43,537 nt of DNA from Polyangiaceae bacterium (GTDB lineage Bacteria > Myxococcota_A > Polyangia > Polyangiales > Polyangiaceae): positions 1 to 43,537 of the forward strand of contig JAJDAH010000410.1 of the NCBI GenBank assembly GCA_029261965.1. Direction: 5' to 3'. The notes under the pieces are model-generated. The model made no database searches. It worked only from the letters and a program-made list of their open reading frames with translations, and was not told the DNA's origin. Position numbers and translations under genes: made by a program. Positions 2,070 to 32,352 of the stretch are shown in pieces (position 1 is the first letter of the stretch; each line of letters starts with the position of its first letter).

Positions 2070-3464
2070 TCAGTGGTCCCCGTCGTGCGCATGCGCTTCG
2101 GGCAGGGTCGCTTTGACCTCTGCGACCGCCACCAGCGGCAAGTACCGGCAGAACAGCAGGAACAAGGTGAAGAAGAGGCCGAAGCTTCCGACAAGGGTCA
2201 TGAAGTCGAAGGCCGTCGGTAGGAAGTAGCCCCAACTCGAGGGCAGAAAATCACGGTTGAGGCTGGTCACGATGATGACGAAGCGCTCGAACCACATGCC
2301 CACGTTCACCAGCGCGCAGATGACCATCATCGCGGGAATGCTCGTGCGTATCTTCTTGAACCAGAACAGCTGCGGGAAAATCACGTTGCAGCTGACCATC
2401 GTCCAATAGGCCCAGGCGTATGGCCCGAACGCGCGGTTGACGAACGCGAAGGTTTCGTAGGGGTTCGCGCCGTACCAGGCGATGAAGAACTCCATCCCGT
2501 ACGCGTATCCAACCATCGTGCCGGTCGCGAGGATGACCTTGTTCATGTTCTCGAGGTGCTCCATGCGGATGATCCGCTTGAGCCCGAAGAACTGACGCGC
2601 CGGTACGAGGAGCGTCACCACCATCGCAAAACCGCTGAAGATAGCGCCGGCGACGAAGTACGGAGGGAAGATCGTCGTGTGCCAGCCGGGTAGCTGCGCG
2701 GTGGCGAAGTCGAAACTGACGACCGAGTGTACCGAGAGCACGAGCGGCGTCGCGAGAGCGGCGAGGATCAAGTACGCGCGCTCGTAGCGGTGCCACTGCC
2801 GGGAGCTGCCGCGCCATCCCATGGCGAAGGCACCGTAGATTGCCTGCCGCGTGCGCTCTTTGGCTCGGTCCCGAATCGCGGCGAGATCCGGAATCATGCC
2901 GATGTACCAAAACAGCAAGCTGACCGTGAAGTATGTGCCGACCGCGAACACGTCCCATTCGAGCGGGCTCCGGAACTGCGGCCACAAGTCCATCTGGTTC
3001 GGGATCGGGAACATCCAGTAGGGCAGCCACGGGCGGCCGATGTGGATGCCGGGGAACGTGAGCGCGCAGATGACCGCGAAGATGGTCATTGCCTCGGCGC
3101 TTCGGTTGATCGCCGTCCGCCAGCGGGCACGCAGAAGGAACAAGATCGCGCTGATGAGCGTGCCGGCGTGGCCGATGCCGACCCAGAAGACGAAGTTGAC
3201 GATCGGGAAAGCCCAGGCGACCGGGATCATGTTTCCCCAGGCGCCGATGCCTTCGTAGAAGACGTATCCAATGCTGCCGCCGAACATCGTGAGGGCGGCG
3301 AGCGAGATGGCGAACGCGATGTACCAGGCGCGAGGCGGCTTCGGCACCTCGGTGACGCGGATGACGTTTTCGGTGAGCTCAGCGAACGGGTTGTCCGTCG
3401 GCTTGAGCGGGCCTTGATAAGCGTTGAGGTGGATGTCGTCGGCTTCGGGAGCTGCGGTGGTCAT
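2070..3464 (-). CDS. actC: Alternative complex III subunit ActC (NrfD-family quinol-binding membrane protein)
   Basis: Integral membrane subunit proposed in ACIII structures to hold the quinol oxidation site. The 464 residues contain about ten hydrophobic helices after an N-terminal cytoplasmic segment, typical of ActC/NrfD/PsrC proteins in length and layout. Family-like features include an early helix motif [12 protein letters not shown], the loop [14 protein letters not shown], the segment [12 protein letters not shown], and [17 protein letters not shown]. The ATG overlaps the actB stop by 4 nt (ATGA), and a clear GGAGG lies about 6 nt upstream, supporting this start and translational coupling. 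The C-terminus is short and His/Asp-rich. No key segment appears to be missing. Confidence 0.95.
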
Positions 3465-6400
3465 CCGTGACCTCCCTTCGGCTTCGCGTCGCCCTCTTCG
3501 GGCGGTGCAAGCTCCGGGTTCGGGTTTCGGACCCGGGCGAGATACTTGAGGCGCGGCCGCACATTGAGCTCTTCGAGCATCGCGTAGGACCGCGGTCGGT
3601 TCTGCAGCTCGGCTACGCGGCTAGCACCGTCGTTGAGATCCCCGAATACGATGGCTTCGGTCGGGCATGTCTGCTGACACGCCGTGACGATTTCTCCGTC
3701 TTCGACCGGGCGGCGATGGTTCTTCGCCTCGATGGTGACCTTGCGGATCCGCTGCACGCAGAAGGAGCACTTCTCCATGACGCCACGGAAGCGGACGGTG
3801 ACCTCGGGGTTGAAGGACATGCCTTTGACCTGGTTGTCCGGGTCTTTCATGTCGTCGTGATAGTTGTGGAAGTTGAACCGCCGCACTTTGTAGGGGCAGT
3901 TGTTCGAGCAATACCGCGTGCCAATGCAGCGGTTGTAGACCATGTCGTTGAGCCCCTCGCTCGAGTGCGAGGTCGCGGCGACAGGGCAAACCTGCTCGCA
4001 GGGAGCGTGCTCGCAATGATGGCAAGTCACCGGCTGCTGAACGAGCTGCGGGTCTTCGGCGTCACCCTTGAAGTACCGGTCGATGCGTAGCCAGTGCATC
4101 TCCTTGCCGCGGGACACCTTGTGCTTGCCTACGACGGGTATGTTGTTCTCGGCCTGGCACGCGACGATGCAGGCGTTGCACCCGACGCAACGGCTGAGGT
4201 CCACGCTCATGCCCCACTTGTGGCCGTCGTAGGAGACCGGCTCGTTCCAGAGCGACAAGAGTGGCTCGTGGTGCACGGCATGCCGGACGGCGTCAGGCTG
4301 TTTCTTGTACGCGGCGAGGGTCTGCTCCCGCACGAGTTGCGGCAGCCGCTCCTCGGTGCCGTCGCGGCCGACCTGATCGATGACGTGTTTGTCTTGAGTG
4401 GTCGAGAGCTTGGCCCTCTTGCCGGTCGCTTTGACTGAGAGGCCACGGCTCGGGTCGAAGACCTCCGTCGTGCGCAGGGCGTAGGCATTGGCGCCGACGG
4501 GGTCGACTCCCGGCTGGCCTCCGAAACGGCCCGCGTGAGTACGCCCGTACCCGTAGGAGAGCACGACCGTTCCGGGCGCGACTCCAGGCGCCATCAAGGC
4601 TGGCACTTCGAGGCTGCGACTGCCGATGCTCAGCTCGACCCACGTGGCGTCGCCGACGCCGAGTTTTTCGGCTGTGGCCGGGCTCATGAGCGCGGCGTTG
4701 TCCCAGGTGAGCTTCGTCATCATGTCTGGCAGCTCTTGCAGCCAGGGGTTGTTGCCGAAGCGGCCGTCGTAGACCTTCGAGTCCGGGCAGAGCACCAGCT
4801 CGAGCTTGCCGTTTTCAACGTCGAGTCCGCCGAGCTCCTCGGCGGTGAGCTTCACCGGCGCGATGGTTTGAACCTCGGGCTCGGTCCCGTTGAAGGCCGT
4901 CCCGGGCACGATGCCTTCGTGCAGAGCGCGTTTCCACGCGCGGTCGTCCGAGCCCCATCCGGCGTGGACGCGGCGGAGGATATCGAGACCTTTTTGCTGC
5001 TCGTCGTTGAGAATGAAAGCGAGCAGCTCGGTCGGCGTGCGGCCCTGAAACAGGGGCTCGACGATGGGCTGGGCAATCGACAGGGTGCCGTCGCTCGCTC
5101 GTGCGTCCCACCAGCGCTCGAGCCAGTGTGCCGCGGGCAGGTGCCAGGTCGATGCGTTCGAGGTCTCGTCCTCGTAAACGCCGAGACGGATGCGATACTT
5201 GATTTTGCTGTACGCCTTCTCGAAGCCGAGGTCCGCCGGCGCGTCGTAGACCGGGTTCGCTCCGAGAACGACGATGGTCTCGACCTGGCCGGAGTTCATC
5301 TCGCCGACCAGAGTCTTGATGGCGTCCCGGTGGTGAGGGCGAGCGGGCTCGGGCTCCGCGAGGTAGCTGATCGCCCCGCCGACGTTGCCGAGAACCTCGT
5401 TGATGCGGTGGACGAGCGCGTGCACCACTGGCGGCTGGCTCGGTCCGACCACGACCGCGGACTTGCCGCGGTTGGCGACGAGCTCCTTGACGACGGTCTT
5501 CAGGAACGCCGCGACCTTCGGGCCATTCAGAAATGCCGCTGCGGGTTTCTGCTGGGCTCCGCCCGCGGCGTCGCCACCGAGGGCTGCACTGACTTCGGCG
5601 TCGAGGGTTGCGGCGAAGGCTTTGATGTAAGTGGACGGGAGCGGCAGCCGATGGTCGGCGACGCCGCCCGTGCTGGTGAATCGGCTTTCGACGGCGTACA
5701 GCCGCGTCATGTAACCAGCTTCGGGCTTACGTGTGCTCATCATTGCCCGGGCGTGCCGCAGTGCGCTGGGCTCTTCGCTCATCACGTCGGCGTCGAGGCA
5801 GAGAACGACCCGTGCCTTTTCGAGCTGCACGTGCGTGCGATGAGCGGCACCGAACGCCAACGCTGCGCCGGCTCGCGCGTTGTCGCGCGACGCCGGCTCC
5901 CACTCGTACCACTTGGCTTGCGGGTACTCGTTCATCAGCCGCCGCAACATGTCTGCGAGCGCAGGAGACGAGCTCGCCTCGGACACGAAGACCAGTCCCT
6001 GACCGCCTTTTGCCTTCGAGTTGTCGAAGATCTTCCGGCCTTCGCCCTCGAAGCTCGCCCAGTCGGCGGCCGACCGCTTGGCACCGGCGATGCGCGCCGG
6101 ACCACGGCTGCGATCCGGGTCGTACATCTCGAACACTGCGGCTTGCGCGAAGACGGTCGCTGCGCCGAGGCTGTCGGGGTGATTGGGGTTGCCCTCGACC
6201 TTGATCGGCCGCCCGTCGTAGCTGGTGACTCGCACCCCGATGCCGACGCCCGCGTGCTCGTAGACGGTCGAAAAAGACTTCGGCACCCCGGGCACGTGGT
6301 CCGGTGGCCGTCGCGAGAACGGCAGAATGTAGTCCTTCTTCCACCGGATCCCGTCTTGCTCCTCGCCGCAGGCGACGGTGGCCGCCGCCGCGGCGGCGCC

Positions 6401-6583
6401 GCCCATCACCTTCAAGAAGCGGCGGCGTCCCGTCGAGTCCGCTGGGCTGAGCTCGGCCTCCGCGATGTCGCCTTCGAGCTCGGTGCTGAACTCTCGTTCG
6501 GCGACCTTCGAAAATTCTGGATCGCCATCACGCTCGGCGAGCGTGCGCCAGTGAATCGGCCCCTGGTCTTTTACCGATGACAT
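3461..6583 (-). CDS. actB: Alternative complex III iron-sulfur subunit ActB
   Basis: Large periplasmic subunit (1040 residues) made of a molybdopterin oxidoreductase-like domain that in known ACIII carries no cofactor (about 75-780) and a C-terminal ferredoxin domain (about 790-980). The N-terminus has a conserved ActB-type IHWRTL motif, then a twin-arginine signal, RRRFLK at 53-58, a hydrophobic stretch and Cys72, so Tat export with possible lipid anchoring is predicted. Ferredoxin cysteines occur at 799/802/805/809, 854/857/862/866, 886/892/896 and 939/942/969/973. The third group has only three cysteines, consistent with the [3Fe-4S] cluster known in this family. Start is ATG 6583, overlapping the end of actA by 13 nt; an open frame upstream of it is an artefact over actA. 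Confidence 0.95.
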
Positions 6584-7221
6584 GTCGAGCAATCTTCTGA
6601 AGGGTTGATGTTTCGCTTCTCGCGAAGGCTCTTGCCGTAGGTCGTTGCGTCCTCCGGCGGTTCCCAGGTCATGTTCGTGACTTCCTCGGGCGGACGTAGG
6701 TGCGGGTCGGGGTTTCTGTGACAGTCGAGGCACCACCCCATGCTCAGCGGCTCGTGCTGGTAGACCTCGACCATTTGGTCGACTCGGCCGTGGCACGACA
6801 CACAACCGATGCCGCGCGTGACGTGCGCGCTGTGGTTGAAGTACGAGAAGTCGCCGAGGTCGTGGATCTTCACCCACTCCACTGGTGCGCCTGTCGTGTA
6901 GCTCTCGCGGATGGGGAGCAGCTTCTTGCTCTCCTTCTTGACGCGCTGATGGCAGTTCATGCACGTCTCGGCCGGCGGCACACCAGCGGCGGCGCCCTTC
7001 TCGACCGTGGTGTGACAGTATCGACAATCGATGCCGAGCTCGCCCGCGTGCAGCGCGTGGCTGTACGGTACGGGTTGCTCCGGCATGTAGCCGACGTCCA
7101 ACGTCTTCGGCGAGAAGCCGAACCAGATCAGGAACGTCAGGTAGACGGGGGCGCCACCAAGAACGGCCCCCGCGAGCATCGGGGTCTTGTTCGTCCAGCG
7201 GGGGAATACGAATCGACTCAT
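6571..7221 (-). CDS. actA: Alternative complex III pentaheme cytochrome c subunit ActA
   Basis: First gene of the ACIII operon. The 216-residue product has an uncleaved N-terminal helix (about 13-36) followed by a periplasmic multiheme domain. Five CxxCH heme sites are visible at residues 66-70, 87-91, 140-144, 164-168 and 211-215; the last sits at the extreme C-terminus. Five hemes is the usual ActA count. The protein receives electrons from the ActB clusters and passes them on to ActE or an external acceptor. ATG 7221 (MSRFVFPRW) is chosen because the upstream frame extension is not ActA-like; the ribosome site is weak. The terminal oxidase partner is not in the window and may lie beyond the left edge. 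Confidence 0.95.
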   Translation of the reverse strand: MSRFVFPRWTNKTPMLAGAVLGGAPVYLTFLIWFGFSPKTLDVGYMPEQPVPYSHALHAGELGIDCRYCHTTVEKGAAAGVPPAETCMNCHQRVKKESKKLLPIRESYTTGAPVEWVKIHDLGDFSYFNHSAHVTRGIGCVSCHGRVDQMVEVYQHEPLSMGWCLDCHRNPDPHLRPPEEVTNMTWEPPEDATTYGKSLREKRNINPSEDCSTCHR

Positions 7222-20238: not shown

Positions 20239-21498
20239 TCAGAACTTCACGTCGAGGGTCAAGTACGTGAAGTGATCCGGTTCGAGGCTGCCGGTTGCCG
20301 GGGCCCGCCCGACGGTGCGCATGAGCTCGTCCGGCACGAATATGCCGTAGAGCGCGCGGACCTGCACGAACTCGATGGGATCGAAAACGACTTTGACATC
20401 GATTTCGTTTCCGAACACAGAATTGCCCGCAGCGTCGTCTTCCGCGCTGCGGAAGTGGTGCACGTCGACGTGGGCGCCGACCCTCTCCGCAATGGCGGCG
20501 CTCAGGCGACCACCGAGGTCGACCAGCCCGAGGTTCGTCGTGTGAACCGGAATGTTGAGGAAGAAATCCATCTCGCCGTAGAATTTGTGGTTCGTCGCGA
20601 AAAGCGTGTCGAAGGTGCCTTCGGCGCTTCCGTTGCCGTGCAGGTGTTCGAGAAAAACGGCGATGGCCGGTTTTTTGGGAACGTCGAAAGCGTAGCCGAG
20701 CTCTCCAGCAACGAATGCGGTGCTGATCGTCTCGTCTTCGAGGGTTCCGAATTGGTAGAAGGCTTCCCCGGTGTAGCGGAACCCTCGATGCTTTCCCGTG
20801 GCGTTGACTCCGGCCGTGTGTCGCACGTCGTCGGTGGCCTGGATCCACCGCGTCATGAAGCTCGGCGAGATCTGGTGGTTCTTCGAGATCTCGAACGAGG
20901 CATGCACACCCCCGAAGTCGATGTCGCCATCACGCCCGTCGGGCACGGTTCCATCGGGGTATTGTCCAGCTTCGAGAATCTTCGAGTAGAACACATCGAG
21001 GGTCACGGGCTTCGCCGAGTAGGTCAACCGGCCCGCGTCGAAAGAACGAGCGCGCTGCGTCCAACCGACGTTTCCGACGAGCCGGTGGTTGTCGAGGGTG
21101 ATCTCTTGGCGACCGATCTTGAGCGAAAGTCCCCGAACGATGGGAAGCACGGCGAACACCTCGTGCGCGTCGAACCCGCTCGCTGAAAAGTCGAGGGTGC
21201 TGTCCTCTTCGCCCCAAATTCGCACGTCCTGCACACGAAGAGTGAACGCTACTCCGGTGTCGTGCTCGAGGGTGAGCCCGAGGCGCGCTCGGTGCGTCGC
21301 GAGTTCGCGAACCTCCGAGTCGTCGCCACGAAAATCGAGTCCGGTGTGCACAATCACCCGCGGGCGATACTGACCGTCTACTGTCAGAAACCATTCGTCG
21401 GAGAGTTCGACCGAGGGAGACGCCGCTGCCGTGCCACTCGCGGTCAGCGCGAGCGCAAAACCTGCAGCCCACAACGTCGTTGTTCTTCGATTCGGCAT
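20239..21498 (-). CDS. Outer-membrane beta-barrel protein, alginate-export family-like
   Basis: 419 residues with a signal peptide (MPNRRTTTLW..., cleavage near ASGTAAAS) and a C-terminal TLDVKF ending in Phe, the mark of an outer-membrane barrel. The body alternates short hydrophobic and polar strands (TLRVQDVRIWGEED, KIGRQEITLDNHRLVGNVGW, ARSFDAGRLTY), as seen in alginate-export/OprD-style porins; the segment GRQE..DNHRLVG is typical. In other genomes such porins sit next to respiratory or uptake genes and may admit an anion. Here it is divergent from the Nap-like genes and convergent with the diheme cytochrome. Ligand not known. Confidence 0.65.
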   Translation of the reverse strand: MPNRRTTTLWAAGFALALTASGTAAASPSVELSDEWFLTVDGQYRPRVIVHTGLDFRGDDSEVRELATHRARLGLTLEHDTGVAFTLRVQDVRIWGEEDSTLDFSASGFDAHEVFAVLPIVRGLSLKIGRQEITLDNHRLVGNVGWTQRARSFDAGRLTYSAKPVTLDVFYSKILEAGQYPDGTVPDGRDGDIDFGGVHASFEISKNHQISPSFMTRWIQATDDVRHTAGVNATGKHRGFRYTGEAFYQFGTLEDETISTAFVAGELGYAFDVPKKPAIAVFLEHLHGNGSAEGTFDTLFATNHKFYGEMDFFLNIPVHTTNLGLVDLGGRLSAAIAERVGAHVDVHHFRSAEDDAAGNSVFGNEIDVKVVFDPIEFVQVRALYGIFVPDELMRTVGRAPATGSLEPDHFTYLTLDVKF

Positions 21499-21521
21499 CT
21501 TACGCGCGCTGGTGCAAGCCG

Positions 21522-21539
21522 CGCGCCATGTTTGGCGCG
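21522..21539. promoter_or_regulatory. CGCGCCA-TGTT-TGGCGCG palindrome between divergent genes
   Basis: A perfect 7-bp inverted repeat with a 4-nt centre lies in the 71-base region between the barrel gene and napG1, where the promoters of both should be. An ATG at 21528 sits inside it, which argues that the napG1 start is the later ATG at 21570. It is a candidate operator; no FNR- or NarL-type consensus was seen. Confidence 0.4.
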
Positions 21540-21569
21540 TTGGCACGCGTTGCGCAAGCGCCGCCTTTC

Positions 21570-22232
21570 ATGGCGTGGAAACCATCGGACGACGACGCAC
21601 CGCCCGGCCGACGGCGCCGCAAGTTGCGCGTGCTCCAAGACCGTCGCTACGAGGTCAATCGTCGGGTTTTTGTGATCCAGGGGCTCGCCCTGGCCGCCGG
21701 CGGCGCGGGCTTGGCGGCGGTGGCGCCGAACGGGCCCCGGCCTCGCGCGACCCCGCCGATCCGCCCCCCGTCGGCGGCTGCCGCCGATGACGTGTTCAGG
21801 GCGGCGTGTGTTCGTTGCGGCATGTGCGGGACGGTGTGTGAGAACGGCTGCATCCGGTTCTTCGGGGCTGACGAAACCGAGCACGGGGCGCTCACCCCAT
21901 ATCTCGACATGCGGCGCCGCTCGTGCACTCTCTGCATGCGCTGCACGAACGTCTGTCCGTCGGGAGCTCTCCGCGGCGTCGCTGACGACCTCGGCGTGAT
22001 CGCGCGGGAGGTGCGCATGGGTCGCGCGGTCATCGATCCCGAGGGCTGCCTTTCGTACCTCGGGCGGCTCTGCGGGTATTGCCACGACGCGTGCCCACTG
22101 CCGGGTGATGCGATTCGCCTCACCCCACCGGCGCTGCCCGTGGTGCTCGAGCAATGCGTGGGGTGCGGCCGCTGCGAGGAAGAGTGCCCCCAGCTCCCCG
22201 CGGCGATTCGCGTCGAACGGAGGAACGCCTGA
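21570..22232 (+). CDS. napG: NapG-like periplasmic ferredoxin (first copy)
   Basis: 220 residues. In Nap systems NapG carries electrons from the quinol-oxidising NapH to the reductase. It has a basic N-region, a twin-arginine motif NRRVFVIQG (30-38) and a hydrophobic stretch, so Tat export is expected with the ferredoxin folded beforehand. Four [4Fe-4S] motifs are visible: CVRCGMCGTVC, CTLCMRCTNVC, CGYCHDAC with an upstream Cys, and CVGCGRCEEEC. The start is uncertain: ATG 21570 is preferred over ATG 21528, which lies in a palindrome. The next gene overlaps by one base (TGATG) with GGAGGAA before it, so NapG and NapH are coupled. Confidence 0.85.
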   Translation: MAWKPSDDDAPPGRRRRKLRVLQDRRYEVNRRVFVIQGLALAAGGAGLAAVAPNGPRPRATPPIRPPSAAAADDVFRAACVRCGMCGTVCENGCIRFFGADETEHGALTPYLDMRRRSCTLCMRCTNVCPSGALRGVADDLGVIAREVRMGRAVIDPEGCLSYLGRLCGYCHDACPLPGDAIRLTPPALPVVLEQCVGCGRCEEECPQLPAAIRVERRNA

Positions 22233-23773
22233 TGAGCCGCAAAGTATCGCTTCCGATCGTACAGTCGTTTGTGCCCGCAGCAAAATGGCGATGGGGAAGG
22301 CGACTGACTCAAGCGTTCGCGCTGGTGGCCGTCGTCGTCGCGCCTTTGCTCGGGGGGTGGCAACGCCTCGAACGAAACGACATGGCCGCGTGGGAAGGGC
22401 CCGGCTGGGATTTACCCGCCTGGCTTGTCGCTCTGTTGCCGCGCGGAGAATCTCCTACGCTGGCTCACGAAGCCAATCGACTCCTCGGGGGTGGTAGCGG
22501 CATCGAATACTTCTCGGTCGCGGTCGTCGACCCGGTGGCGGGCGCGCTCGCGCTGACCACGATGCAGGTTTCGACAAAAGTGCTCGTCGCGTGGCTCTTG
22601 CCGGTGGGGTTGGCCCTCGTCGCCGGGCGAGTCTTTTGTGGATGGCTCTGCCCGTTCGGCACGTTGTCTCGCACGATGGAAGGACTCCTCCGCGCCCTGC
22701 GATGGCGGATCCCGCGCGCTAGGGTGCCCACGCGCCGATGGCTGCGGTGGTGCGTGCTCGCGCTCGGTGCCAGTTTGGGAGTCGCTGGGTTCGAGGTCGT
22801 GCTGTACCTCGCGCTCCCCTATGTGTTGGTTCAACAGTCGGCGTATGGCCTGTGGTTGTTGGGCGGGGCGGGGGCGTCCCTAGGGTGGCTCGTTGGACTG
22901 CTGGTGGCCGGCCTGTTTTTCGGTCCGAGCACCTACTGCGCCACGGTCTGCCCCACCGGTGCGGCGCTTTCACTACTCGGTCGCCGAAGGGCGCTTCGGG
23001 TGACGATCGCGGAGCCATCGAGTTGCGGGAAGTCCTGTCGCAATTGCTCCCGCGCCTGCTGGCTGTCCCTCGATCCGGCGTCGGGAGATCCCGGTCCCGA
23101 CTGTGACTCTTGCGGTCGGTGCTTTTCGGTTTGCCCCCACACGAATTTGAGGATCGGCTGGCTCCGCCCGGTCGGTCGTCGGGCGGCCGCCGCCGCAGTT
23201 GCGCTCGCCGTGCTCGTCGGCCTGCCCGTGCGAAGCGCACGAGCCGAGCTCGCCCGCCCGCAACCTAGGCTCGTTCTCGACGAGGTGCGAGCCGTGCGAG
23301 ACGTGCACGTGCACATCGGCATCGAGGACCTGACGGGCGTCCGGTTGGACGCCGACGATGAGCGCCAGCTTTCTGGAGTCCGCCTGAGAGTGATGCTGGT
23401 TCGCGGTTCTCGCGGCGCGGAGGACGAGCTCGGAAAGTTGGACTGGAGAGGGATGTACGACGGGCCCATCGTCATCGACGTCGATGGTCGGGTCGTCGAG
23501 TTGATGGAGCCCAACGCGCCGTCGTCCACACCCCGGCGCTCTTTCTACCGAGCGCACCTGCCCATCCAGCTCACCGCGGGCGCGCGCATACGCATCGAAA
23601 AAGTCCCTGGGTGGTTGGACGAGCCAGTGTCTTTTCGAGTGCCGCATCGCTCTCCGGCATCCTGGCGGAGGTTCGTTTCGGCGCTTGCTGTCGCGGTCTT
23701 CACTTTCGGCGGCGCGCTTTCCCTCGCGTTGGCTCTAGGAGATCGCCCGAACGTGCGACTACCCAACCACTAG
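22232..23773 (+). CDS. napH: NapH-like membrane polyferredoxin with periplasmic C-terminal domain
   Basis: 513 residues. NapH oxidises quinol and passes electrons to NapG. Several helices in the first half flank two cysteine loops characteristic of NapH/NosR (CGWLCP at 136-141 and CATVCPTG near 237). Two [4Fe-4S] motifs follow (CGKSCRNCSRAC, CDSCGRCFSVC). Unlike E. coli NapH (287 residues), it continues with a helix, a signal-like ARAEL junction and a roughly 200-residue extracytoplasmic beta-rich domain, ending in a final helix and short tail. The extension resembles in layout that of the N-terminal half of the giant fusion at 28070. Start at ATG 22232 overlaps the napG stop by one base. Confidence 0.85.
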   Translation: MSRKVSLPIVQSFVPAAKWRWGRRLTQAFALVAVVVAPLLGGWQRLERNDMAAWEGPGWDLPAWLVALLPRGESPTLAHEANRLLGGGSGIEYFSVAVVDPVAGALALTTMQVSTKVLVAWLLPVGLALVAGRVFCGWLCPFGTLSRTMEGLLRALRWRIPRARVPTRRWLRWCVLALGASLGVAGFEVVLYLALPYVLVQQSAYGLWLLGGAGASLGWLVGLLVAGLFFGPSTYCATVCPTGAALSLLGRRRALRVTIAEPSSCGKSCRNCSRACWLSLDPASGDPGPDCDSCGRCFSVCPHTNLRIGWLRPVGRRAAAAAVALAVLVGLPVRSARAELARPQPRLVLDEVRAVRDVHVHIGIEDLTGVRLDADDERQLSGVRLRVMLVRGSRGAEDELGKLDWRGMYDGPIVIDVDGRVVELMEPNAPSSTPRRSFYRAHLPIQLTAGARIRIEKVPGWLDEPVSFRVPHRSPASWRRFVSALAVAVFTFGGALSLALALGDRPNVRLPNH

Positions 23774-23952: not shown

Positions 23953-24663
23953 ATGAAACAAATGCGCTCTTGCCGTCGGCCAGCGGTGCTCGCGGTGATC
24001 GCCGTCGCGGTCGCGGCGTGCAGCTCCACCAACGACGGCGGCTCGGCGCGTTCGAACAGCACCGAAGTCCGGCCGATCCGCACCATCAAAGTCATCGATT
24101 CGATGATCGAAGAGGGTGAGACGCAATTCAACGCCAACTGCAAGACTTGCCATGGCGAAGAAGGGGTTGGGCGCATCGGTATCGCACCGAGCCTGACGTC
24201 GACCAGTTTTCTCGAAGCGGCAAGCGATCCGTGGCTCGTGAGAACGATCACCGGCGGGCGTCAGGGCACCACCATGGCTGGCTTCGGAGATCGCCTCGAG
24301 GGGTATCAAATCGAGGCCATGGTCGCCTATCTCCGGTCGAAGAACGAGACGAAGCCCCCGCTGCTCAACGAAAGCCCGGTGTTTGGCGATGCCGACAAGG
24401 GCGCGCAGATCTTCCGCACGGTGTGCGCCACCTGTCACGGTCGCCGCGGCGCCGGGTATCAGGAGTCCACCAGCGGATCCGGTATCGGCCGGCGAGGTTT
24501 CCTGAGCACCGTGAGCGTCGGATACCTCCGCTACATCATCAAGAACGGCAAGAGCGGTACGCCGATGAAGCCGTTCACTGACCAAGTGGTGACCAACGTC
24601 ACCGGTTTGGGCGATGACCAAGTCGAGGACGTCATCGCGCATCTCAAAAAGAGTGCCTGGTAG
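23953..24663 (+). CDS. Diheme c-type cytochrome lipoprotein
   Basis: 236 residues with a lipoprotein signal (AVAAC, Cys23) and two c-type domains: CKTCH (63-67) and CATCH (158-162). Each is followed by small-domain features of cytochrome c4/c555-like proteins; a Met-containing TTMAGFGD segment lies after the first. It probably docks to the outer face of the inner membrane and could replace NapB as the direct donor to NapA, which follows 21 nt later. ATG 23953 is supported by GGAGG 7 nt upstream. A 179-base gap separates it from napH1, so this may be the head of a second transcript; no consensus promoter was recognised in that gap. Confidence 0.9.
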   Translation: MKQMRSCRRPAVLAVIAVAVAACSSTNDGGSARSNSTEVRPIRTIKVIDSMIEEGETQFNANCKTCHGEEGVGRIGIAPSLTSTSFLEAASDPWLVRTITGGRQGTTMAGFGDRLEGYQIEAMVAYLRSKNETKPPLLNESPVFGDADKGAQIFRTVCATCHGRRGAGYQESTSGSGIGRRGFLSTVSVGYLRYIIKNGKSGTPMKPFTDQVVTNVTGLGDDQVEDVIAHLKKSAW

Positions 24664-24684: not shown

Positions 24685-27432
24685 ATGAAGCGCAATCGTC
24701 GCGAGGCCAGATTTTACGGAGGGAAGGAACACGAGGTCCTCGCGCAAGCGCCGGCGGACCTCACTCGCCGGGGCTTCGTGCAGGGTGGGCTGGTCGCCAG
24801 TGCGGCGGCCGTCGTCGCATGCGAGAAATCCAAGAAGCCGGTGGAGCCCACCGAGCCCTCACCGCTCACCGAAGCCATTGCACCGGGACAACCGCAAACC
24901 GAGTTCGCGCCACCCGAAAAGGACGTGCCCAACGACATTCTCGCGCAGTGTCCGTACTGCGGGGTGGGCTGCGGCACCCTCATCCAGACCGAGAAAGGGA
25001 AGATCGTCGGGATGAAACCCGACCCGAAGCATCCGACCAACGCGGGTCTTCAGTGCATCAAGGGTTTGACGAGCGCCGAGGCCATCTACGTCGATCGCCT
25101 GACCAAGCCGCTCATTCGAAAGGACTACACCGACCCGATTTCTGGCCGCGAGAGCAAGAGCAAGGGCAGCTTCGACGACAACGTATTTCGTGAGGCGACC
25201 TGGGAGGAAGCCGAAGAACTCGTCATCTCCAAGACCGTGGAGATCATCAAGAAGTTCGGTGGAAACTCGGTGGGCCTCTACGGCTCAGGCCAGCTCCCGG
25301 TCGAGGGGCAGTGGCTCGAGAACGTGTTCATGAAAGGCGTAGTCGGCTCGAACACCATCGAAGCGAATGCTCGCATGTGCATGACGTCGGCGGTGACAGG
25401 GTACTTCAAGTCCCTCGGCAGCGACACGCCTCCTACCTCCTACGAAGACATCGAGATGGCGGACATGGTGACCCATTGGGGCCACAACGCTCGAGGCGCG
25501 CACCCGATCGTCTTTTGGAGGATCGCCGACCACAAGGCGAAAAAGAAGATCCCGACCCTGGTGGTCGACCCACGCCGCACGGGCACTGTGCAGGGCTACG
25601 AGGAGATCGGTGGGAAGAAAAATTCGTATCACTTCTCGACGATCAACGGCGACATCGCGATTCACAACGCCATCGCCCACGTGATCCTCACCGAACACGA
25701 CGACGCAGTGGCGTGGGATTTCTTGAAGGAACACGTCACCGGGTGGGAGAAGTACGTCGAGGCCTGCAAGGAGCGCTACTCGCCGGAAAAGGTCCAACCG
25801 ATCACCATGATCGAGCCGCGCTACCTGAGAAAGGTCGCCAAGGAGTGGGCAGACGCTTCGATCAAGGGGAAGAAGAACGGCAAGGGCGGCGTCCTGAGCT
25901 TCTGGGGCATCGGGTACAACCAACATCTGCACGGGCAGAACAACACGGTCAGCCTCATCAATTTGATGGCCCTCACCGGCAACATCGGGCGACCGGGGTG
26001 CGGGCCGTTCTCCATGACCGGACAACCGAACGCGATGGGCGAGCGGCTCACCGGCGGATTGACCGGGCGGCTGCCTTTCAACCAGGGCATCGACAATGAA
26101 CAGTGGCGCGACCACATCGCCGAATCCTGGCACGTCGATGCCGATCGGCTGAAAGGAGTGAGCAAGCTCCAAAACACCGGCTACGCCGTCGGGATGATGG
26201 AGCGCGCGCTCAAGGACGAGCTGAAGGCGTTTTTCCTCATCTACGCGACGCACATCGATTTGCCCGACCAGCACAAGTTGGTCCGCCCGGCCCTGTCGAA
26301 GACGTTCAACGTCGTGCAGGAGATCTACAGACACGCACCCAACAACCTCTACGCCGACGTCATCTTGCCGGCGGCCACGTGGGGGGAATGGGTCGGCGGC
26401 ACCTACATCCAGTCCGAGCGACGATTCTACGTGTGTGATGGCACCGCGAATCCGATCCCCGGTACGCGACCCGACATGGACATGGTCATCGACAAGGGCA
26501 TCGAGATCGCCAACCGTCTTGGGCTCGAAGGCGACAAGATCTTCCCCTACAAGCGGAAGGAAAACGGTTTTTACGATCCCGAAGAGGTGTTCCGCGACAT
26601 CGTCAAGGCGAGCAAGGGCTCCGACGCGGACATCAGCGGAATGCTCGAAGTCGAAAAGCGCGACAAGATCGGGCTCTACGACCAGATCCGTAAACACCGC
26701 GGCATCCAATGGCCAGCGCCGACCTACGAGATCGCCAAGGAAGGCGGAACGAAGCGGCGCTACATGGAGCAGGAGGGGTGGAAAGAGAAACCCTACGGTT
26801 GGTTCAGAACCAACGATGGGAAGCTTCACATTCACCTCTGTGAACAGAACTACGAGAACCGCGAGGCGATCATCAAAGAGTTGAGCCGAGCGGGCACAGA
26901 GGAAGGGTTCTACTTGATAGACCACATGGATCTGCTGATTGAGGCACGGGACAACGGCCTCACTCCCGAGTTGCCGGACTTCAGTCAGCTCGGCAAGAAG
27001 TGGGATGCCGTTCCGAAGGACAAGTACCCATTCTGGGTCGGCCTCGGCGTCGTCTACGAGCACTTCCACACGTCGAAGACCATTCGCTCCGGTACGACGA
27101 AGCGTCTGGTACCGGAAATGTACGTCGAGATGCATCCGGAGGACGCCAAAGAGCTCGGCATCGACGACGGCGAATGGGTGAAGGTCATCACGCGGCGCGG
27201 TCACTACGAAGCGCGTGCATCGATAGGGCTCGACTCGAAGGTGAAACCGGCGAGGAACACCGTTCCCAAGGGGTACATGTTCAGCCCGTGGAACCTCTCG
27301 GTCGCCGATTCCGCGGATCCGAAGAAGAACAAATGGCTCGTGAACGGCGTGAGTCACCGAGCGTTCGACCCGGTCAGCGGCCAGGCGGATTTCAAGAAGC
27401 TGGCGGGTCGTATCGAGAAGCTCGAGGCGTGA
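24685..27432 (+). CDS. napA: NapA-family periplasmic molybdopterin oxidoreductase
   Basis: 915 residues. Closest in layout to NapA, which reduces nitrate to nitrite in the periplasm using Mo-bis-MGD and one [4Fe-4S]. Cluster cysteines are C89, C92, C96 and C124 (CPYCGVGC...GLQCIKG). The Mo ligand position is Cys232 in ANARMCMTSAV, as in NapA (NARHCMASAV); formate dehydrogenases have SeCys/Cys and DMSO reductases Ser in other contexts. GNIGRPGCGPFSMTGQPNAMG and the C-terminal VVYEHFHTS and HPEDAKELGI match NapA as well. It is about 90 residues longer than E. coli NapA. A Tat motif (TRRGFVQGG, RR28-29) is followed by AVVAC, so Cys46 may be lipidated. No NapD chaperone gene is nearby. Nitrate is the default substrate, but another oxyanion is possible. 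Confidence 0.85.
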   Translation: MKRNRREARFYGGKEHEVLAQAPADLTRRGFVQGGLVASAAAVVACEKSKKPVEPTEPSPLTEAIAPGQPQTEFAPPEKDVPNDILAQCPYCGVGCGTLIQTEKGKIVGMKPDPKHPTNAGLQCIKGLTSAEAIYVDRLTKPLIRKDYTDPISGRESKSKGSFDDNVFREATWEEAEELVISKTVEIIKKFGGNSVGLYGSGQLPVEGQWLENVFMKGVVGSNTIEANARMCMTSAVTGYFKSLGSDTPPTSYEDIEMADMVTHWGHNARGAHPIVFWRIADHKAKKKIPTLVVDPRRTGTVQGYEEIGGKKNSYHFSTINGDIAIHNAIAHVILTEHDDAVAWDFLKEHVTGWEKYVEACKERYSPEKVQPITMIEPRYLRKVAKEWADASIKGKKNGKGGVLSFWGIGYNQHLHGQNNTVSLINLMALTGNIGRPGCGPFSMTGQPNAMGERLTGGLTGRLPFNQGIDNEQWRDHIAESWHVDADRLKGVSKLQNTGYAVGMMERALKDELKAFFLIYATHIDLPDQHKLVRPALSKTFNVVQEIYRHAPNNLYADVILPAATWGEWVGGTYIQSERRFYVCDGTANPIPGTRPDMDMVIDKGIEIANRLGLEGDKIFPYKRKENGFYDPEEVFRDIVKASKGSDADISGMLEVEKRDKIGLYDQIRKHRGIQWPAPTYEIAKEGGTKRRYMEQEGWKEKPYGWFRTNDGKLHIHLCEQNYENREAIIKELSRAGTEEGFYLIDHMDLLIEARDNGLTPELPDFSQLGKKWDAVPKDKYPFWVGLGVVYEHFHTSKTIRSGTTKRLVPEMYVEMHPEDAKELGIDDGEWVKVITRRGHYEARASIGLDSKVKPARNTVPKGYMFSPWNLSVADSADPKKNKWLVNGVSHRAFDPVSGQADFKKLAGRIEKLEA

Positions 27433-28073
27433 GCGAGCTCACGCCCGAGCCGGGGGGAACGTCGCCGAAGGGCGACGGCGCCACGCGACGGACGTTTCTC
27501 GGCGCTCTGGTGGCTGGTGCCGTGGGCGCGGCTGGGTGGGCCGCAGGGACAAAGGACTCGAAGCGTAGCCGCGAGCTTCGGCTTCGGCCGCCCGGAGCGC
27601 TACCCGACGGCGAGTTCGAGTCCGCATGCGTGAGCTGTTTCAAGTGCGGGACGGCGTGCCCGAACGACTGCATTCGCTTTCATGGTCTCGAAAGCGGACT
27701 CGGCAAAGTCTTCACCCCCTACATCAAAGCCCGCACCCGCGGGTGCACCCTGTGTGGCGAGTGCGCCAACATCTGCCCGAGCGGGGCGCTCGTTCCGTTT
27801 GGGGATTCTCGAGAGGGTTGGCTCGAGGGAGTCGACATGGGCAAGGCCTACGTCAACGAGGGCCTCTGCTACAGCTTCGCCGGGCGGACCTGCGGCGCCT
27901 GCTACCGCGCGTGCCCGCTGGCGGGACAGGCCATCAAGATTGGCCTCCTCGAAACACCGCACGTCGATCGCGACCTGTGCGTGGGCTGCGGCCTCTGCGA
28001 GCAGTCTTGTTTGCATTTGCCCCAGGCCATCCGAGTGATCCCGAGGGAGAACCTGAAGGGGCCCGGCGCATGA
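27429..28073 (+). CDS. napG: NapG-like periplasmic ferredoxin (second copy)
   Basis: 214 residues from GTG 27429, overlapping the napA stop by 4 nt (GTGA). Tat motif ATRRTFLGAL (RR20-21) and a hydrophobic run to about 40. Four [4Fe-4S] motifs: CVSCFKCGTAC, CTLCGECANIC, CGACYRAC with CYSFAGRTC upstream, and CVGCGLCEQSC. It is clearly related to the copy at 21570 in motif order and length, so the cluster has two NapG paralogues. The gene lies between napA and the giant NapH fusion and overlaps both by 4 nt, suggesting a fixed stoichiometry. The gene symbol denotes family only. Confidence 0.9.
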   Translation: MSELTPEPGGTSPKGDGATRRTFLGALVAGAVGAAGWAAGTKDSKRSRELRLRPPGALPDGEFESACVSCFKCGTACPNDCIRFHGLESGLGKVFTPYIKARTRGCTLCGECANICPSGALVPFGDSREGWLEGVDMGKAYVNEGLCYSFAGRTCGACYRACPLAGQAIKIGLLETPHVDRDLCVGCGLCEQSCLHLPQAIRVIPRENLKGPGA

Positions 28074-31000
28074 CTGGTCGTGCGCGAGCCATCTTCGGCC
28101 AAGTGTTTCGGCGGGCACTCCAGCTTGGCGTCTTGGTTTTTGTCGTTTGGGCGGCTTTCGGCGGTGCCTGGCGCAATTACAAGGTCGCGCACAACAACTC
28201 ACGCCTCGTCGGGTTGATCGAGGGAGAAAGCTGGGGCGCCGCCTACGACTACAACGAGCGCCTGTTGTCGTTTTGGGACGAGCCGTTCCGCGCCAGCTTC
28301 GATTTTCTCGGCATGCCGTGGGCGGCCACCGTGTTCGGCGTCGCCACCGTCGACCCGATCATGGTGCTCTCTCACGCGGCGACCTCGCGCTCTTTTACTC
28401 CCGACCTCTGGATCGCTGCGCTCACGCCCGTCGCTCTTGCGGCCGTGCTCGGTAAGTTTTTCTGTAGTCACCTTTGTCCAGCTCGTTTCGCGTTCGAGGT
28501 GGCCCAGCTCGTCCGGAGCGGTTTGATGAGACTCGGGATCGCTCTACCGCATCGACGCCTGAAACAGCGCTTCGGTGGCTGGGTGTTGCTCGGGGGCCTC
28601 TTGGCTGCGGCGTTTTCTTCCACAGCTATCTGGCTGTTCGTCTTGCCCTACGTGGGCATCGTGTCGGCCATCTTCCTCGCGATCACCGGAGGGACAGCGA
28701 CGGGTCTCTTGCTCGTGCCGCTCGCCTGGTTCGTCTTCGACGCCCTCGTTGCTCCGGGGTTTTTCTGCCACAACGTTTGCCCGCAGGGTTTCCTGCTCGA
28801 GCAGATGGCTCGGGTCGCGCCGTGGCGGCTCTTGCAAACGAAGGCCGACGAGTGTCCGTCTGCCTGTCACGCCTGCGAAAAAACCTGCCCGTACTCGCTC
28901 TCACCACGCAACGGGACCCATCGTCCAGCGTGCAACAACTGCGGGATGTGCTCGGTGGTCTGTCCAAAGCAGAAACTCGGTAGGCGCTTCTCTTTCGGCC
29001 CCGCGGCGCGCCGCGTGCTTCCCGTAGTGACAGCGCTTGCGCTGGTGCTGCTCCCCGCTGCTTCGGCATTCGCCCATCACAACAAGGGGCTGCCGCACTA
29101 CGGGTACTACGATAACTATCCGCAAGTGCCCACCGAGGAGAGCATTTCGATTCAGGGCCGTTGGGAGATGGGCGGTACCGTCTTCAACTTCCAGGGCTAC
29201 GACCGGCGCCAAGCGGACACGCCCAACGACGTGAAGTTCTTCATGTACTTGTACGACCTCGAGGCCGACGAGCACTACGAGGGGCCCGTAGATTTCGAGA
29301 TCCGCCGCGATGACGAGATTGTGGCGCGTTTCTCACGCGATGGCGTCGACGAAGAGAAGATCTATTCGACGAGGGAAACCCTGCCGGAGAGCGGCGACTA
29401 CGACGTCGTGGCGCACATCCGTGACCCAAGCCGACCCGGGACGGCAACCATCTACTTCCCGATCGATCTCGGCGATCGGCCAGTCAACTGGGGCGTCGTG
29501 GCAGCGATCACGATCCCGGTGCTCGTGCTCTTTGCGCTTGCGGGCCTCGGTCGGACACGGCGAGCTCGAGCGAAGCGAATGAAGACGCAGCCCGTCGCTG
29601 CGGCGGTCTTTGCGGTGCTCTTGGGCGCCGCGAGCGCACAGGCCGAGGTCGACCACTCTAAACACGCTCATCACGGTCCAAAGCCGCCCGCCACCGCCCA
29701 GGCGCCGGTCGACCACTCTAAGCACGCTCACCACGGCCCAAAGCCGCCCGTCGCAGCCCAGGCGCCGGCGAACCACTCGAAGCACACCCGCCCCGCCGAG
29801 CCGTCGCCGAGCGAAACCGCAGCGCGGGTCGACCACTCGAAACACAACCATCATGTGCCGGCCAAGGGCGGAGCCCGCACTGACGATTCGAAACACGACC
29901 ACGGCGCCGAGCCGGCGCCGGCCAAGACCGCGGTGCCCGTCGACCCCTCGAAGCATGCTCACCATGGCGGCCAATCGGCAGCCAAAGCGTCGTCGGCGGC
30001 GGACCACTCGGAGCACGGGCACCATGTCGAGGCGGAGCCGCCCAAAGCATCGGCGCCGCTCGAGCATTCGAGGCACGCCCAAGACGGACCTCAGCCAGCT
30101 GACGGCGCGCAACCGGCCCACGCGGACGCCGTCTCGGCGCGGGCTCACGCTGGGCACGGGGAGCCTTCCGCGCACGCCGGCCACGGTGAACACGCGGCGC
30201 ACCAGGCTCACGGCGAGCACGCGGGGATGAAACACTTCACGACAACTGACGGTCAGACGGTGATGGTGATGGGTGGCATTCCGCCGTGGCTATTGGTCGT
30301 CGCGGTCGTGCTTCTCATTCTGGGGTCGTTTGTCATCGTCGAACGCATCGGCAAAGGACGCGGGTCGAGCTTTCGTTTCAACTTGATCCGAAGGCCGAAG
30401 CTCTACCGGGCGATCAAGAATCGCTGGCTCCAAGCGATCCCCCAACTGTTCGCGGTCGTTGCGTTCGCGTTCATCGTGTACGCCGGGCTCGGGGGGAGCC
30501 GCTACCACAACATCGCGCCCGTCGCCGTGTGGACGCTCTGGTGGGCGGGATTGATTTTCGCTGTCGTAATTCTCGGTCCGGTGTTCTGTTTCGCTTGTCC
30601 ATGGGATGGGCTCGCGAACCTGATGACGAGGCTACGCCTCGCAGCTCGCGTCGACACCTTGTCCTTCGGGCTCCAGGTTCCGAGCTGGCTCCGGAACATG
30701 TGGCCCGCCATTGGACTGTTCGTGCTTCTGACTTGGGCGGAGCTTGGTCTCGGGATTACCTCGGATCCCCGCGGCACCGCCTACATGGGCATCGGCATGG
30801 CGGCGTTGGCGGTGGGGTTCGCGCTGACCTTCGAAAAAAAGGCATTTTGCGCGCACCTGTGCCCGGTCGGTCGCATCACGGGCATCTACTCGAACTTCGC
30901 ACCGGTCGAGGTCCGCGCAAGAAACGAAAAGGTGTGCGCCAAGTGCACGACCGAGGATTGCCTCCACGGCAACGATCGGGGTTACGCTTGCCCCACCGGG

Positions 31001-31780
31001 CTTTCGCTCAAGGTGCTCGACAACGCGACGTATTGCACCGGCTGCACCGAGTGCATCAAGAGCTGCGACAAAAACAACGTCGCGTTGAACGTTCGACCGT
31101 TCGCCGCGGACATGGATCGCATTCGACTTCCGCGGTTGGACGAGTCGTGGCTGTGCCTCTCACTCCTGGCGCTGACCTTGTTCCATGGCTTCACGATGAC
31201 CACGGCTTGGGAGAACTTCGAGCCGGGCAGCACGAGCTTGATGAAATGGATGACGGTGGCGATAGGCACCCCCTCTGCCGTCAACTTCACCGTCGGTATG
31301 GTTCTGGCGCTGGCCGTGCCCGTCGGACTCTACTGGGGGAGCTGTCGCGCCGCCGCCTGGTGGGCGGGGGGAGGCGTGTCGGCAAGGACTCTCTTTCTAC
31401 AGTATTCGTTCACGCTGCTCCCAGTCGCGCTCTTTTACCACTTGGCACACAACGCGATGCACCTCGGGATGGAGGGCGCGCACATCGTGCCCCTCTTGAG
31501 CGACCCGTTCGGGACCGGTGCCGACTACTTCGGGACGGCGAGCCGTAGCCCCGGGCATCTCATCGGCGAGAGGCCGCTTTGGTACATTCAAGTGGGACTG
31601 ATTCTCGTCGGCCACGTCTTCGGCATCGTGGTGGCGCACCGCATCAGTCGACGGCTCTACGAAAAGATCGAATTAGCGAGGCGAAGCTTGGTTCCGTTGT
31701 TGCTCGTCATGGTGCTGCTCAGCGCCGCGGGCCTGTCCTTGATGGCGCTGGACATGAACATGCGCGTGGGACGAATGTAG
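28070..31780 (+). CDS. Giant fusion: NapH-like module, His-rich repeat linker, second polyferredoxin membrane module
   Basis: 1236 residues. Part 1 (1-503): NapH-like helices with CSHLCP (132) and CHNVCP (233) loops, two [4Fe-4S] motifs (ECPSACHACEKTC near 262, CNNCGMCSVVC), then a signal-like ASAFA/HHNK junction, an extracytoplasmic domain with GLPHYGYYDNYPQ, and a helix ending in a basic stretch. At Met504 a second signal-peptide-like segment begins (MKTQPVAAAVFAVLLGAASAQA). Part 2: His-rich repeats (527-673) and further His/Gly-rich sequence to about 723, a helix, then a second polyferredoxin module with CFAC (840), CAHLCP (927), CAKC (956) and CTGCTECIKSC (989), and five C-terminal helices with conserved-looking His residues (1039, 1124, 1127, 1131, 1182, 1190). 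Start ATG 28070 overlaps napG by 4 nt. Likely a quinol-linked electron-transfer protein; metal binding is inferred from the linker. I know of no described protein with this order of parts. Confidence 0.8.
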   Translation: MTGRARAIFGQVFRRALQLGVLVFVVWAAFGGAWRNYKVAHNNSRLVGLIEGESWGAAYDYNERLLSFWDEPFRASFDFLGMPWAATVFGVATVDPIMVLSHAATSRSFTPDLWIAALTPVALAAVLGKFFCSHLCPARFAFEVAQLVRSGLMRLGIALPHRRLKQRFGGWVLLGGLLAAAFSSTAIWLFVLPYVGIVSAIFLAITGGTATGLLLVPLAWFVFDALVAPGFFCHNVCPQGFLLEQMARVAPWRLLQTKADECPSACHACEKTCPYSLSPRNGTHRPACNNCGMCSVVCPKQKLGRRFSFGPAARRVLPVVTALALVLLPAASAFAHHNKGLPHYGYYDNYPQVPTEESISIQGRWEMGGTVFNFQGYDRRQADTPNDVKFFMYLYDLEADEHYEGPVDFEIRRDDEIVARFSRDGVDEEKIYSTRETLPESGDYDVVAHIRDPSRPGTATIYFPIDLGDRPVNWGVVAAITIPVLVLFALAGLGRTRRARAKRMKTQPVAAAVFAVLLGAASAQAEVDHSKHAHHGPKPPATAQAPVDHSKHAHHGPKPPVAAQAPANHSKHTRPAEPSPSETAARVDHSKHNHHVPAKGGARTDDSKHDHGAEPAPAKTAVPVDPSKHAHHGGQSAAKASSAADHSEHGHHVEAEPPKASAPLEHSRHAQDGPQPADGAQPAHADAVSARAHAGHGEPSAHAGHGEHAAHQAHGEHAGMKHFTTTDGQTVMVMGGIPPWLLVVAVVLLILGSFVIVERIGKGRGSSFRFNLIRRPKLYRAIKNRWLQAIPQLFAVVAFAFIVYAGLGGSRYHNIAPVAVWTLWWAGLIFAVVILGPVFCFACPWDGLANLMTRLRLAARVDTLSFGLQVPSWLRNMWPAIGLFVLLTWAELGLGITSDPRGTAYMGIGMAALAVGFALTFEKKAFCAHLCPVGRITGIYSNFAPVEVRARNEKVCAKCTTEDCLHGNDRGYACPTGLSLKVLDNATYCTGCTECIKSCDKNNVALNVRPFAADMDRIRLPRLDESWLCLSLLALTLFHGFTMTTAWENFEPGSTSLMKWMTVAIGTPSAVNFTVGMVLALAVPVGLYWGSCRAAAWWAGGGVSARTLFLQYSFTLLPVALFYHLAHNAMHLGMEGAHIVPLLSDPFGTGADYFGTASRSPGHLIGERPLWYIQVGLILVGHVFGIVVAHRISRRLYEKIELARRSLVPLLLVMVLLSAAGLSLMALDMNMRVGRM
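29648..30088 (+). repeat. Eight tandem copies of a His-rich VDHSKHAHHG unit (60-bp period)
   Basis: In-frame repeats begin at 29648, 29708, 29768, 29828, 29879, 29939, 29999 and 30059. Seven successive distances are 60, 60, 60, 51, 60, 60 and 60 bp, that is 20 residues with one 17-residue step. Each unit is a 10-residue core (x-D-H-S-K-H-x-H-H-G type) followed by a Pro/Ala spacer. The first two copies are almost identical in DNA; later ones drift, keeping S and H. The period and composition suggest metal binding in the periplasm and growth by unequal crossing over. Confidence 0.95.
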
Positions 31781-32352
31781 TGGCTAGCCGCGACCTGAGT
31801 CGACGTGACCTCTTTCGCCGTTTCGTGCCGGAGACCGTGGAACACGTTGGTCGAGACGTTCGTGAAGAGCTGGGGGTTCCGCTCGTGCCCCGTCGGCGTC
31901 CGCCTGGGGCGGTGGGCGAACGTGCGTTCCTCGAAAAGTGCACGCGGTGCCGTCGCTGCGTCGAGGCGTGCGAACACGGCGCGATTCACACGCTCGCGGA
32001 CTGGGTGGCAGTAGGCGCTGGCACCCCCGTGATGGTCCCCGAATCGCGGCCATGTCACACGTGCGACGGGTTTCCGTGTGCGCAGGCGTGCGACGACGGT
32101 GCACTCTTGGAAGTGGTCGACCCGGTGTGGAAACTCGGCAGCGCGCGCCTGGTTGCCGCGCACTGCCTGGTTTTCCAGGGCCCGGAGTGCGGGGCATGCG
32201 CGGGCCTCTGTCCGCCGCCTCTCGATCCACCGCCGCTCGCGCTGACCTTGGGGCGTCCGAGCATCGACCCCGACTCGTGCGTCGGATGTGGGTTGTGCAT
32301 CGACGCGTGTCCAGTCACGCCCGCGGCCATCGAGATGATAGCTCTCGATTGA
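31780..32352 (+). CDS. napF: NapF-like cytoplasmic ferredoxin
   Basis: 190 residues from GTG 31780, which shares one base with the preceding TAG. NapF is a cytoplasmic ferredoxin linked to NapA maturation and iron-sulfur loading. The N-terminus (SRRDLFRRF) resembles that of NapF and lacks a hydrophobic stretch, so it is not exported. Four [4Fe-4S] patterns are visible: CTRCRRCVEAC, CHTCDGFPCAQAC, a CGACAGLC segment with an upstream Cys, and CVGCGLCIDAC. It closes the run of overlapping genes napA-napG-fusion-napF. Its presence with a NapA homologue supports the Nap-type reading of the cluster. Confidence 0.85.
   Translation: MASRDLSRRDLFRRFVPETVEHVGRDVREELGVPLVPRRRPPGAVGERAFLEKCTRCRRCVEACEHGAIHTLADWVAVGAGTPVMVPESRPCHTCDGFPCAQACDDGALLEVVDPVWKLGSARLVAAHCLVFQGPECGACAGLCPPPLDPPPLALTLGRPSIDPDSCVGCGLCIDACPVTPAAIEMIALD

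Follow-up and report, generated by a model that had tools for sequence, protein, structure and literature searches.

A putative respiratory polyprotein with a candidate copper-type redox module in a Nap-type gene cluster of a Polyangiaceae bacterium

The fbcH gene of Bradyrhizobium encodes a polyprotein from which cytochromes b and c1 are cut apart at an internal signal. Here we analyse a 43,537-nucleotide stretch of Polyangiaceae DNA (the window) that holds a 1236-codon reading frame, called the giant below, for which a comparable release of several respiratory membrane proteins from a single bacterial ORF by signal peptidase is predicted, with the difference that the giant would yield three products by way of two internal signals. 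Its modules are, in order, a NapH-like module (M1), a periplasmic beta-sandwich that starts with His-His (HHNKG), a periplasmic tail and a polyferredoxin (M2). Like NapH, M1 carries CX3CP twice, followed in its C-terminal part by two 4Fe-4S motifs (all read from the sequence), and adjoins a NapG gene, but it falls far under the curated NapH cut-offs and possesses an extra internal signal-like helix and a periplasmic domain.

Two further systems bear on the rest of the protein. CcoG (with FixG/RdxA) is presented in PMC7558416 as a membrane Fe-S protein with an Ig-like periplasmic domain and is described there as a cupric reductase. M2 is likewise a membrane Fe-S protein but matches neither the CcoG model nor FixG_C, and has C-terminal helices of its own with invariant His and Met residues. 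FtrA and FtrD are, according to PMC11966278, components of the FtrABCD ferrous-iron uptake system; the resemblance would lie in a fold moderately like that of P19, next to a polyferredoxin of distant relationship, while the giant differs in its link to NapA, in its extra metal-binding tail and in the lack of FTR1 or a cupredoxin among the window ORFs scanned. Searches of open-licence papers, with passages of PMC7558416, PMC5928378 and PMC11966278, brought up no earlier description of the giant.

The giant reading frame and its counterparts in relatives

The frame is open throughout from 28070 to 31780 on the forward strand, and the architecture described in an earlier note on this DNA, a 1236-residue protein with a NapH-type module, an extracytoplasmic domain and a second module, is confirmed; the product is likely a polyprotein precursor. 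The 5' end overlaps the napG2-like gene (ending at 28073) by 4 bases, and the TAG stop (31778–31780) has one base in common with a GTG able to start napF, bearing out the placement of the giant in a NapA cluster, overlapping napG2 and with napF directly after it. These overlaps suggest a single napG2-giant-napF transcript, the second of them holding if napF starts at GTG 31780. The giant occurs once in the genome (9.6 Mb in 480 contigs, the window being contig 346), where weak partial matches to it are found at napH1 and one other place. NapH models score 98–100 bits against the whole protein, below their curated cut-offs, the best E in a PDB sequence search was 0.22, and the FMN-binding family, a feature of NosR, is absent from its Pfam matches at E<=1e-3.

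Relatives were gathered by a scan of genome contigs (five loci) and by a search with M2 of 282 genomes of the phylum, 33 of which match at E<=1e-20, and 32 stretches were fetched. The whole M1-HHNKG-M2 region can be judged in 13 NapA-type loci, and in seven of these (the window, L005, L007, L056, L057, L059 and L060; L075 is L005 again and was not counted) it forms one continuous frame, while L004, L077, L079 and L080, all cut by contig ends, were left out of the count. Three loci (L008, L061 and L062) have two genes, M1-HHNKG and M2, split just before M2. M1, HHNKG and M2 are three genes in L006, the order in L058 is M1, napF, HHNKG-M2, and HHNKG lies in an ORF of its own in L063. The L005 contig begins in napG2 and carries no NapA. 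On a tree of M2 the seven fused loci group with L058, L008 and L004 (100/100), with L006, L061 and L062 beside them (93/89), and because of this clustering a single fusion followed by splits would fit the tree; several fusions are also possible.

The earlier note had proposed that homologues split by a stop at about 29575 would show two ordinary genes, and had called for a search for the same architecture in relatives. That search recovered the fusion in six other genomes, and the split was found in part: L008, L061 and L062 divide near the equivalent position, six relatives do not. The three split relatives are what speaks for two ordinary genes that were joined when a stop codon was lost or misread in sequencing, an explanation that we reject as scarcely credible since six other genomes share the fusion, with tails that differ; judged by these comparisons, the continuous frame is real and not a base-call artefact or the outcome of a lost stop. 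The internal ATG at 29579 (ATG being the only start codon considered) was also weighed as a general start of M2 and is unlikely as such, Met being missing from that position in L005, L007 and L057.

Internal boundaries and the domains between them

M1 spans residues 1–335 (28070–29074) and ends in a signal-like segment at about residues 316–335, directly before HHNKG, that closes with LPAASAFA. It matches TIGR02163 (5.1e-20), and taken alone reaches 72 bits against this model (cut-off 213) and 66 bits against PRK09477 (cut-off 234); the second half of the giant reaches 36 and 40 bits against the NapH models, so that a search with the halves, as the earlier note had proposed, finds NapH matches for both and every score under its curated cut-off. 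The predicted signal peptidase cut falls between Ala335 and His336 (29072–29077). At this boundary all 14 loci compared show Ala at -1 and 13 of them Ala at -3 (Val in L008), while position -2 takes nine different residues and -6 is Pro in 10 of the 14. Of the 13 loci other than L079, ten encode M1 and HHNKG in a continuous frame, and L006, L058 and L063 do not. Over its 531 columns the M1-HHNKG alignment of those ten contains no other A-x-A conserved at 85% or more, and the M2 alignment (13 rows) has none. The sequence that follows, HHNKGLPHYGY, is nearly invariant, and in L006 and L058 what looks by eye like an N-terminal signal, belonging to a separate gene, closes with the same A-x-A/HH.

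A signal-like segment before the second module had been noticed in the earlier note and is confirmed at residues 504–525 (MKTQPVAAAVFAVLLGAASAQA; 29579–29644), the segment ahead of HHNKG being an addition to it. The predicted cut lies between Ala525 and Glu526, with A-x-A in all eight loci compared (the seven fused ones and L058), where shuffling of the tails leads one to expect 3.4. Within the same eight proteins A-x-A follows 10 of 108 other hydrophobic cores, as against 8 of 8 boundary-1 cores; between HHNKG and M2 it follows 9 of 12, made up of all seven detected boundary-2 cores (that of L007 fell under the detection threshold) and two of five cores of the HHNKG anchor. These counts overstate the evidence, coming as they do from related and hence non-independent sequences. 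Both internal sites show the feature of signal peptidase I substrates, a hydrophobic core and then A-x-A, and since the A-x-A is conserved at both joints, signal peptidase I probably cleaves at each of them, with a mature product of three chains. The earlier picture of two modules held on one chain by a metal-binding linker is accordingly not supported.

The domain between the two boundaries is a predicted periplasmic beta-sandwich with an anchor helix (residues 336–495; 29075–29554), and it is the only confident part of the AlphaFold model of the giant (overall pLDDT 51), with block values of 82–91 at residues 391–460 and lower ones before. Structural likeness, seen over residues 352–469, is to FetP/P19/FtrA-type chains (Z 7.8–9.3 over about 110 residues), CrdA (Z 9.0) and PmoD (Z 8.8), which are titled or known as copper-binding. 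Two proteins of unknown function, DUF4426 (9.1) and DUF3244 (9.0), score equally high, and other Ig-like chains (complement, Brr2) reach up to 8.1. HHNKG has no Pfam family at E<=1, and thus no sequence-family match to P19/FetP/FtrA; the model resembles the P19/FetP, CrdA and PmoD copper proteins moderately, as a likeness of fold only.

Residues 526–718 (29645–30223) are His-rich, with 34 His among the 192 residues from 527 to 718. The eight repeats of DHSKH type reported for this segment are all present, as matches to [DNE]xS[KER]H at residues 528, 548, 568, 588, 605, 625, 645 and 665; shuffled sequences hold 0.04 on average and 2 at most. Among the loci the tail varies from 24 to 192 residues and in content: those of L007, L057 and L058 have CxxCGM and MDHS or MDHY motifs, and those of the fused L056 and L059 are ligand-poor, with 6% and 4% H+M+C. 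Because other M2 proteins carry a heavy-metal-binding segment or Cys/Met/His-rich stretches at this position, the segment is better seen as a variable periplasmic tail of M2 than as a linker between modules.

The M2 polyferredoxin family

M2 (residues 719–1236; 30224–31777) is a polyferredoxin in which 12 Cys are conserved and the C-terminal part is helical, and its first motif is CX2CP, unlike the CX3CP of NapH. The 12 Cys, and likewise Met1043, His1127, His1131, Met1229 and Met1231 (31196–31762), are identical in all 31 aligned members, namely 14 NapA-type, 10 HMBD-group and 7 CtaG proteins; a duplicate (L034), contig-cut or partial sequences (L045, L047 and L055), distant ones (L054 and L083) and a Cys-less one (L073) had been dropped before the count. 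Hydropathy and charge place the invariant His and Met at the periplasmic ends of helices (one helix placed by eye), where they form a candidate periplasm-facing copper site. By virtue of this C-terminal part with its invariant His and Met, M2 is, on alignment, not simply a second NapH. By its sequence it is a family of its own. Neither the giant nor M2 has an NCBIfam match to the CcoG model TIGR02745 at E<=1e-3, and FixG_C is absent from the Pfam matches of both; identity of M2 with CcoG was rejected, the one match of the CcoG model in the genome being weak (24 bits, under the cut-off) and on another contig. The predicted structure of M2 is poor (pLDDT 57.5) and gave no Foldseek match in the PDB at E<=0.001.

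Other members of the family are joined to metal-related domains. The two standalone M2 proteins scanned with Pfam match the heavy-metal-binding domain HMBD, one at 3.4e-6, which passes the cut-off, and one at 3.4e-4, which falls short of it. In the HMBD group a CPMxC...CPxCxM segment behind the signal is visible by eye in nine of ten proteins, L037 being the exception. The domain of the copper factor CtaG (Caa3_CtaG, 1.8e-58, Pfam) is fused to one M2 relative, whose neighbourhood includes, judged by eye, genes of cytochrome oxidase and cytochrome b/Rieske type, and six further aligned members have CtaG-type N-termini by eye. The relatives behind a CtaG domain are L046 (the same place as L074) and L048–L053, one of them recognised with Pfam and the rest by eye. 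A distant relative occurs in Deinococcus ficus, with a gene directly upstream that encodes a His-rich anchored protein, and a Cys-less one in Sagittula aligns over 417 columns. An Azospirillum operon for iron transport encodes a 4Fe-4S protein that can likewise be aligned with M2 (3.8e-15), over the 206 columns of a shared core only; homology to an FtrD-like polyferredoxin of an FTR1 operon is thus partial.

Relatives without cysteines were seen at L010 (4999–6402) and L073 (G146:C33 78365–79813), the latter with SCO-like and PCuAC-like genes, named by eye, nearby on the opposite strand. On an Aulosira laxa plasmid (L011, 4663–7377) an M2-like core lies behind regulator-type domains in a protein annotated as a nitrogen assimilation regulatory protein.

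The Nap-type cluster and the reading of the giant

The giant belongs to a same-strand run of napG1, napH1, cytochrome c, NapA-like, napG2, giant and napF genes. The napG1-like ferredoxin (21480–22232, start uncertain; Fer4-type Pfam matches) has tblastn matches in L004, L006, L061, L063, L077 and L081. The napH1-like gene follows (22232–23773; Fer4_5 4.9e-14), with a C-terminal periplasmic domain and anchor, and then a two-domain cytochrome c (23953–24663; Cytochrome_CBB3 3.6e-21, Cytochrom_C 6.7e-19), a homologue of which is encoded upstream of NapA in all but one (L061) of the 14 loci that include that side. The NapA-like bis-MGD oxidoreductase (24685–27432; Molybdopterin 2.6e-38) has, by eye, a twin-arginine-type signal and a possible lipobox. 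Its closest solved structures are periplasmic nitrate reductases (best 1.5e-75); it scores 306 and 322 bits against NapA models with cut-offs of 931 and 904, and 330 bits, slightly above these, against an Fdh-alpha model with a cut-off of 666. The active-site stretch reads Cys-Met by eye (NARMCM), as in nitrate reductases, and nitrate is the likely substrate. On the other side are the napG2-like ferredoxin (27429–28073, start assumed; PRK09476 NapG 1.4e-38, below cut-off) and, after the giant, the napF-like ferredoxin (31780–32352; Fer4 matches), whose homologues adjoin M2, or M1 in L058.

The NapA clade is present in 13 of the 282 genomes (E<=1e-100) and is found in all nine that have a close M2 (at least 53% identity). 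Conversely, 11 of the 13 NapA-clade genomes have an M2-family gene, a more distant one in G143 and G105, and the two without M2 at E<=1e-20 (G173 and G185) have NapA contigs that end before its expected place.

We favour, as a little more probable than its denial, the reading that the giant is a cut polyprotein giving rise to a NapH-like dehydrogenase, a copper-binding sandwich and an M2 for copper redox beside Nap. On membrane insertion signal peptidase I would cleave the two internal signal-like helices, one behind Ala335 and the other behind Ala525. The first product would be a quinol dehydrogenase feeding NapG2 and the NapA-like enzyme; the second a membrane-anchored periplasmic sandwich whose new His-His N-terminus is a likely Cu(II) site; and the third the M2 polyferredoxin with a periplasmic metal-binding tail, His-rich in this genome. 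In M2 electrons would pass through 4Fe-4S clusters on the cytosolic side to the periplasm-facing His2Met3 site and there reduce or oxidise copper bound to the tail and to the sandwich protein, by analogy with CcoG more likely from Cu(II) to Cu(I). The metal of M2 and HHNKG is most likely copper, because of the HMBD and CtaG partners, the tail motifs, the invariant His and Met, the fold of HHNKG and the precedent of CcoG, and the hint of copper in the earlier note is to that extent supported; against copper count the ligand-poor tails of L056 and L059 and the failure to recognise a copper enzyme among 20 window ORFs scanned with Pfam. Against the reading as a whole stand also the moderate fold match of HHNKG, the poor model of M2, the M2 relatives that lack the cysteines and the A-x-A behind two of the five anchor cores. 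A fuller version, in which the NapH quinol dehydrogenase, the cleavage-made His-His copper protein and a cupric-reductase-like M2 with an exchangeable metal-binding tail form a copper redox shuttle that links the NapA-type reductase with the quinol pool or the cytosol, and M2 is a new metal-reductase family with Nap, CtaG and HMBD settings, is tentative and on present evidence rather doubtful.

Three other readings have to be set against the cut polyprotein. The giant might be one uncut multi-domain membrane protein that keeps M1 and M2 together with the His-rich linker as a tether, as the continuous frame in seven loci and internal signals that exceed the hydropathy threshold for membrane helices would allow; we judge this unlikely in view of the A-x-A conserved at both joints around a free middle residue, the relatives that encode the same modules as separate genes, and the variability of the tail. 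Somewhat less probable still is that M2 has no electron role and acts in maturation or protection of the NapA-like enzyme, for instance by shielding Fe-S or heme from copper. Its tight co-occurrence with the NapA clade, and the M2 relatives in loci without a NapA match, agree with such a factor, but the M2 of the window sits between the electron-transfer genes napG2 and napF and a copper-sensitive NapA has no support in the present data.

To the iron reading, in which M2 and HHNKG would be an FtrA/FtrD-like ferrous redox pair without FTR1, perhaps passing electrons of Fe(II) to Nap, we give the lowest standing of these three. The Azospirillum operon aligned with M2 is annotated with an iron transporter, a cupredoxin, FTR1 and the 4Fe-4S protein, and the HHNKG model resembles FtrA/P19, some entries of which hold copper and iron; that alignment is nevertheless limited to the shared core, FTR1 was absent from the 20 window ORFs scanned with Pfam, and the HMBD and CtaG partners and the invariant Met favour copper. 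If the cut polyprotein is the right reading, it would be a rare respiratory polyprotein in bacteria, with two conserved internal cleavage sites, and M2 would represent a membrane family for metal redox chemistry, as yet uncharacterised, that is associated with copper domains in several contexts, a Nap-type cluster among them. We know of no role for copper in a Nap-type cluster, and as a probable polyprotein that includes a redox module of copper type the giant is of more interest than as a wire of two modules.

A further small polyprotein may be encoded in the cluster by napH1. An internal signal-like segment ending in A-R-A precedes its periplasmic domain, with A-S-A in L081 and no A-x-A in L004, and the possibility arises because the periplasmic domain of the L006 napH1 (1855–2946) lies in another frame, by eye as if it were a gene of its own. 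In L076 (G105:C262 1–3162) the genes for cytochrome c and the NapA of this clade are immediately preceded by one for an M2 relative of HMBD type (34%), and because of this adjacency the NapA-type and HMBD-type M2 can, it appears, replace each other near NapA.

The neighbours that recur between loci were also looked through for copper enzymes, with Pfam in the case of the window porin. Besides the nap genes they include several groups that look like shadow ORFs and a CxxCH-bearing ORF found in three loci (L007, L060 and L081). The porin, an alginate-export-type outer membrane protein (20239–21546, reverse strand) through which the substrate may pass, is present close to the cluster in four loci, the window, L061, L063 and L080. 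Elsewhere in the window (2070–7027, reverse strand) an NrfD-type membrane protein stands beside a 1188-residue molybdopterin-binding and 4Fe-4S protein, a pair that we take to be as in alternative complex III.
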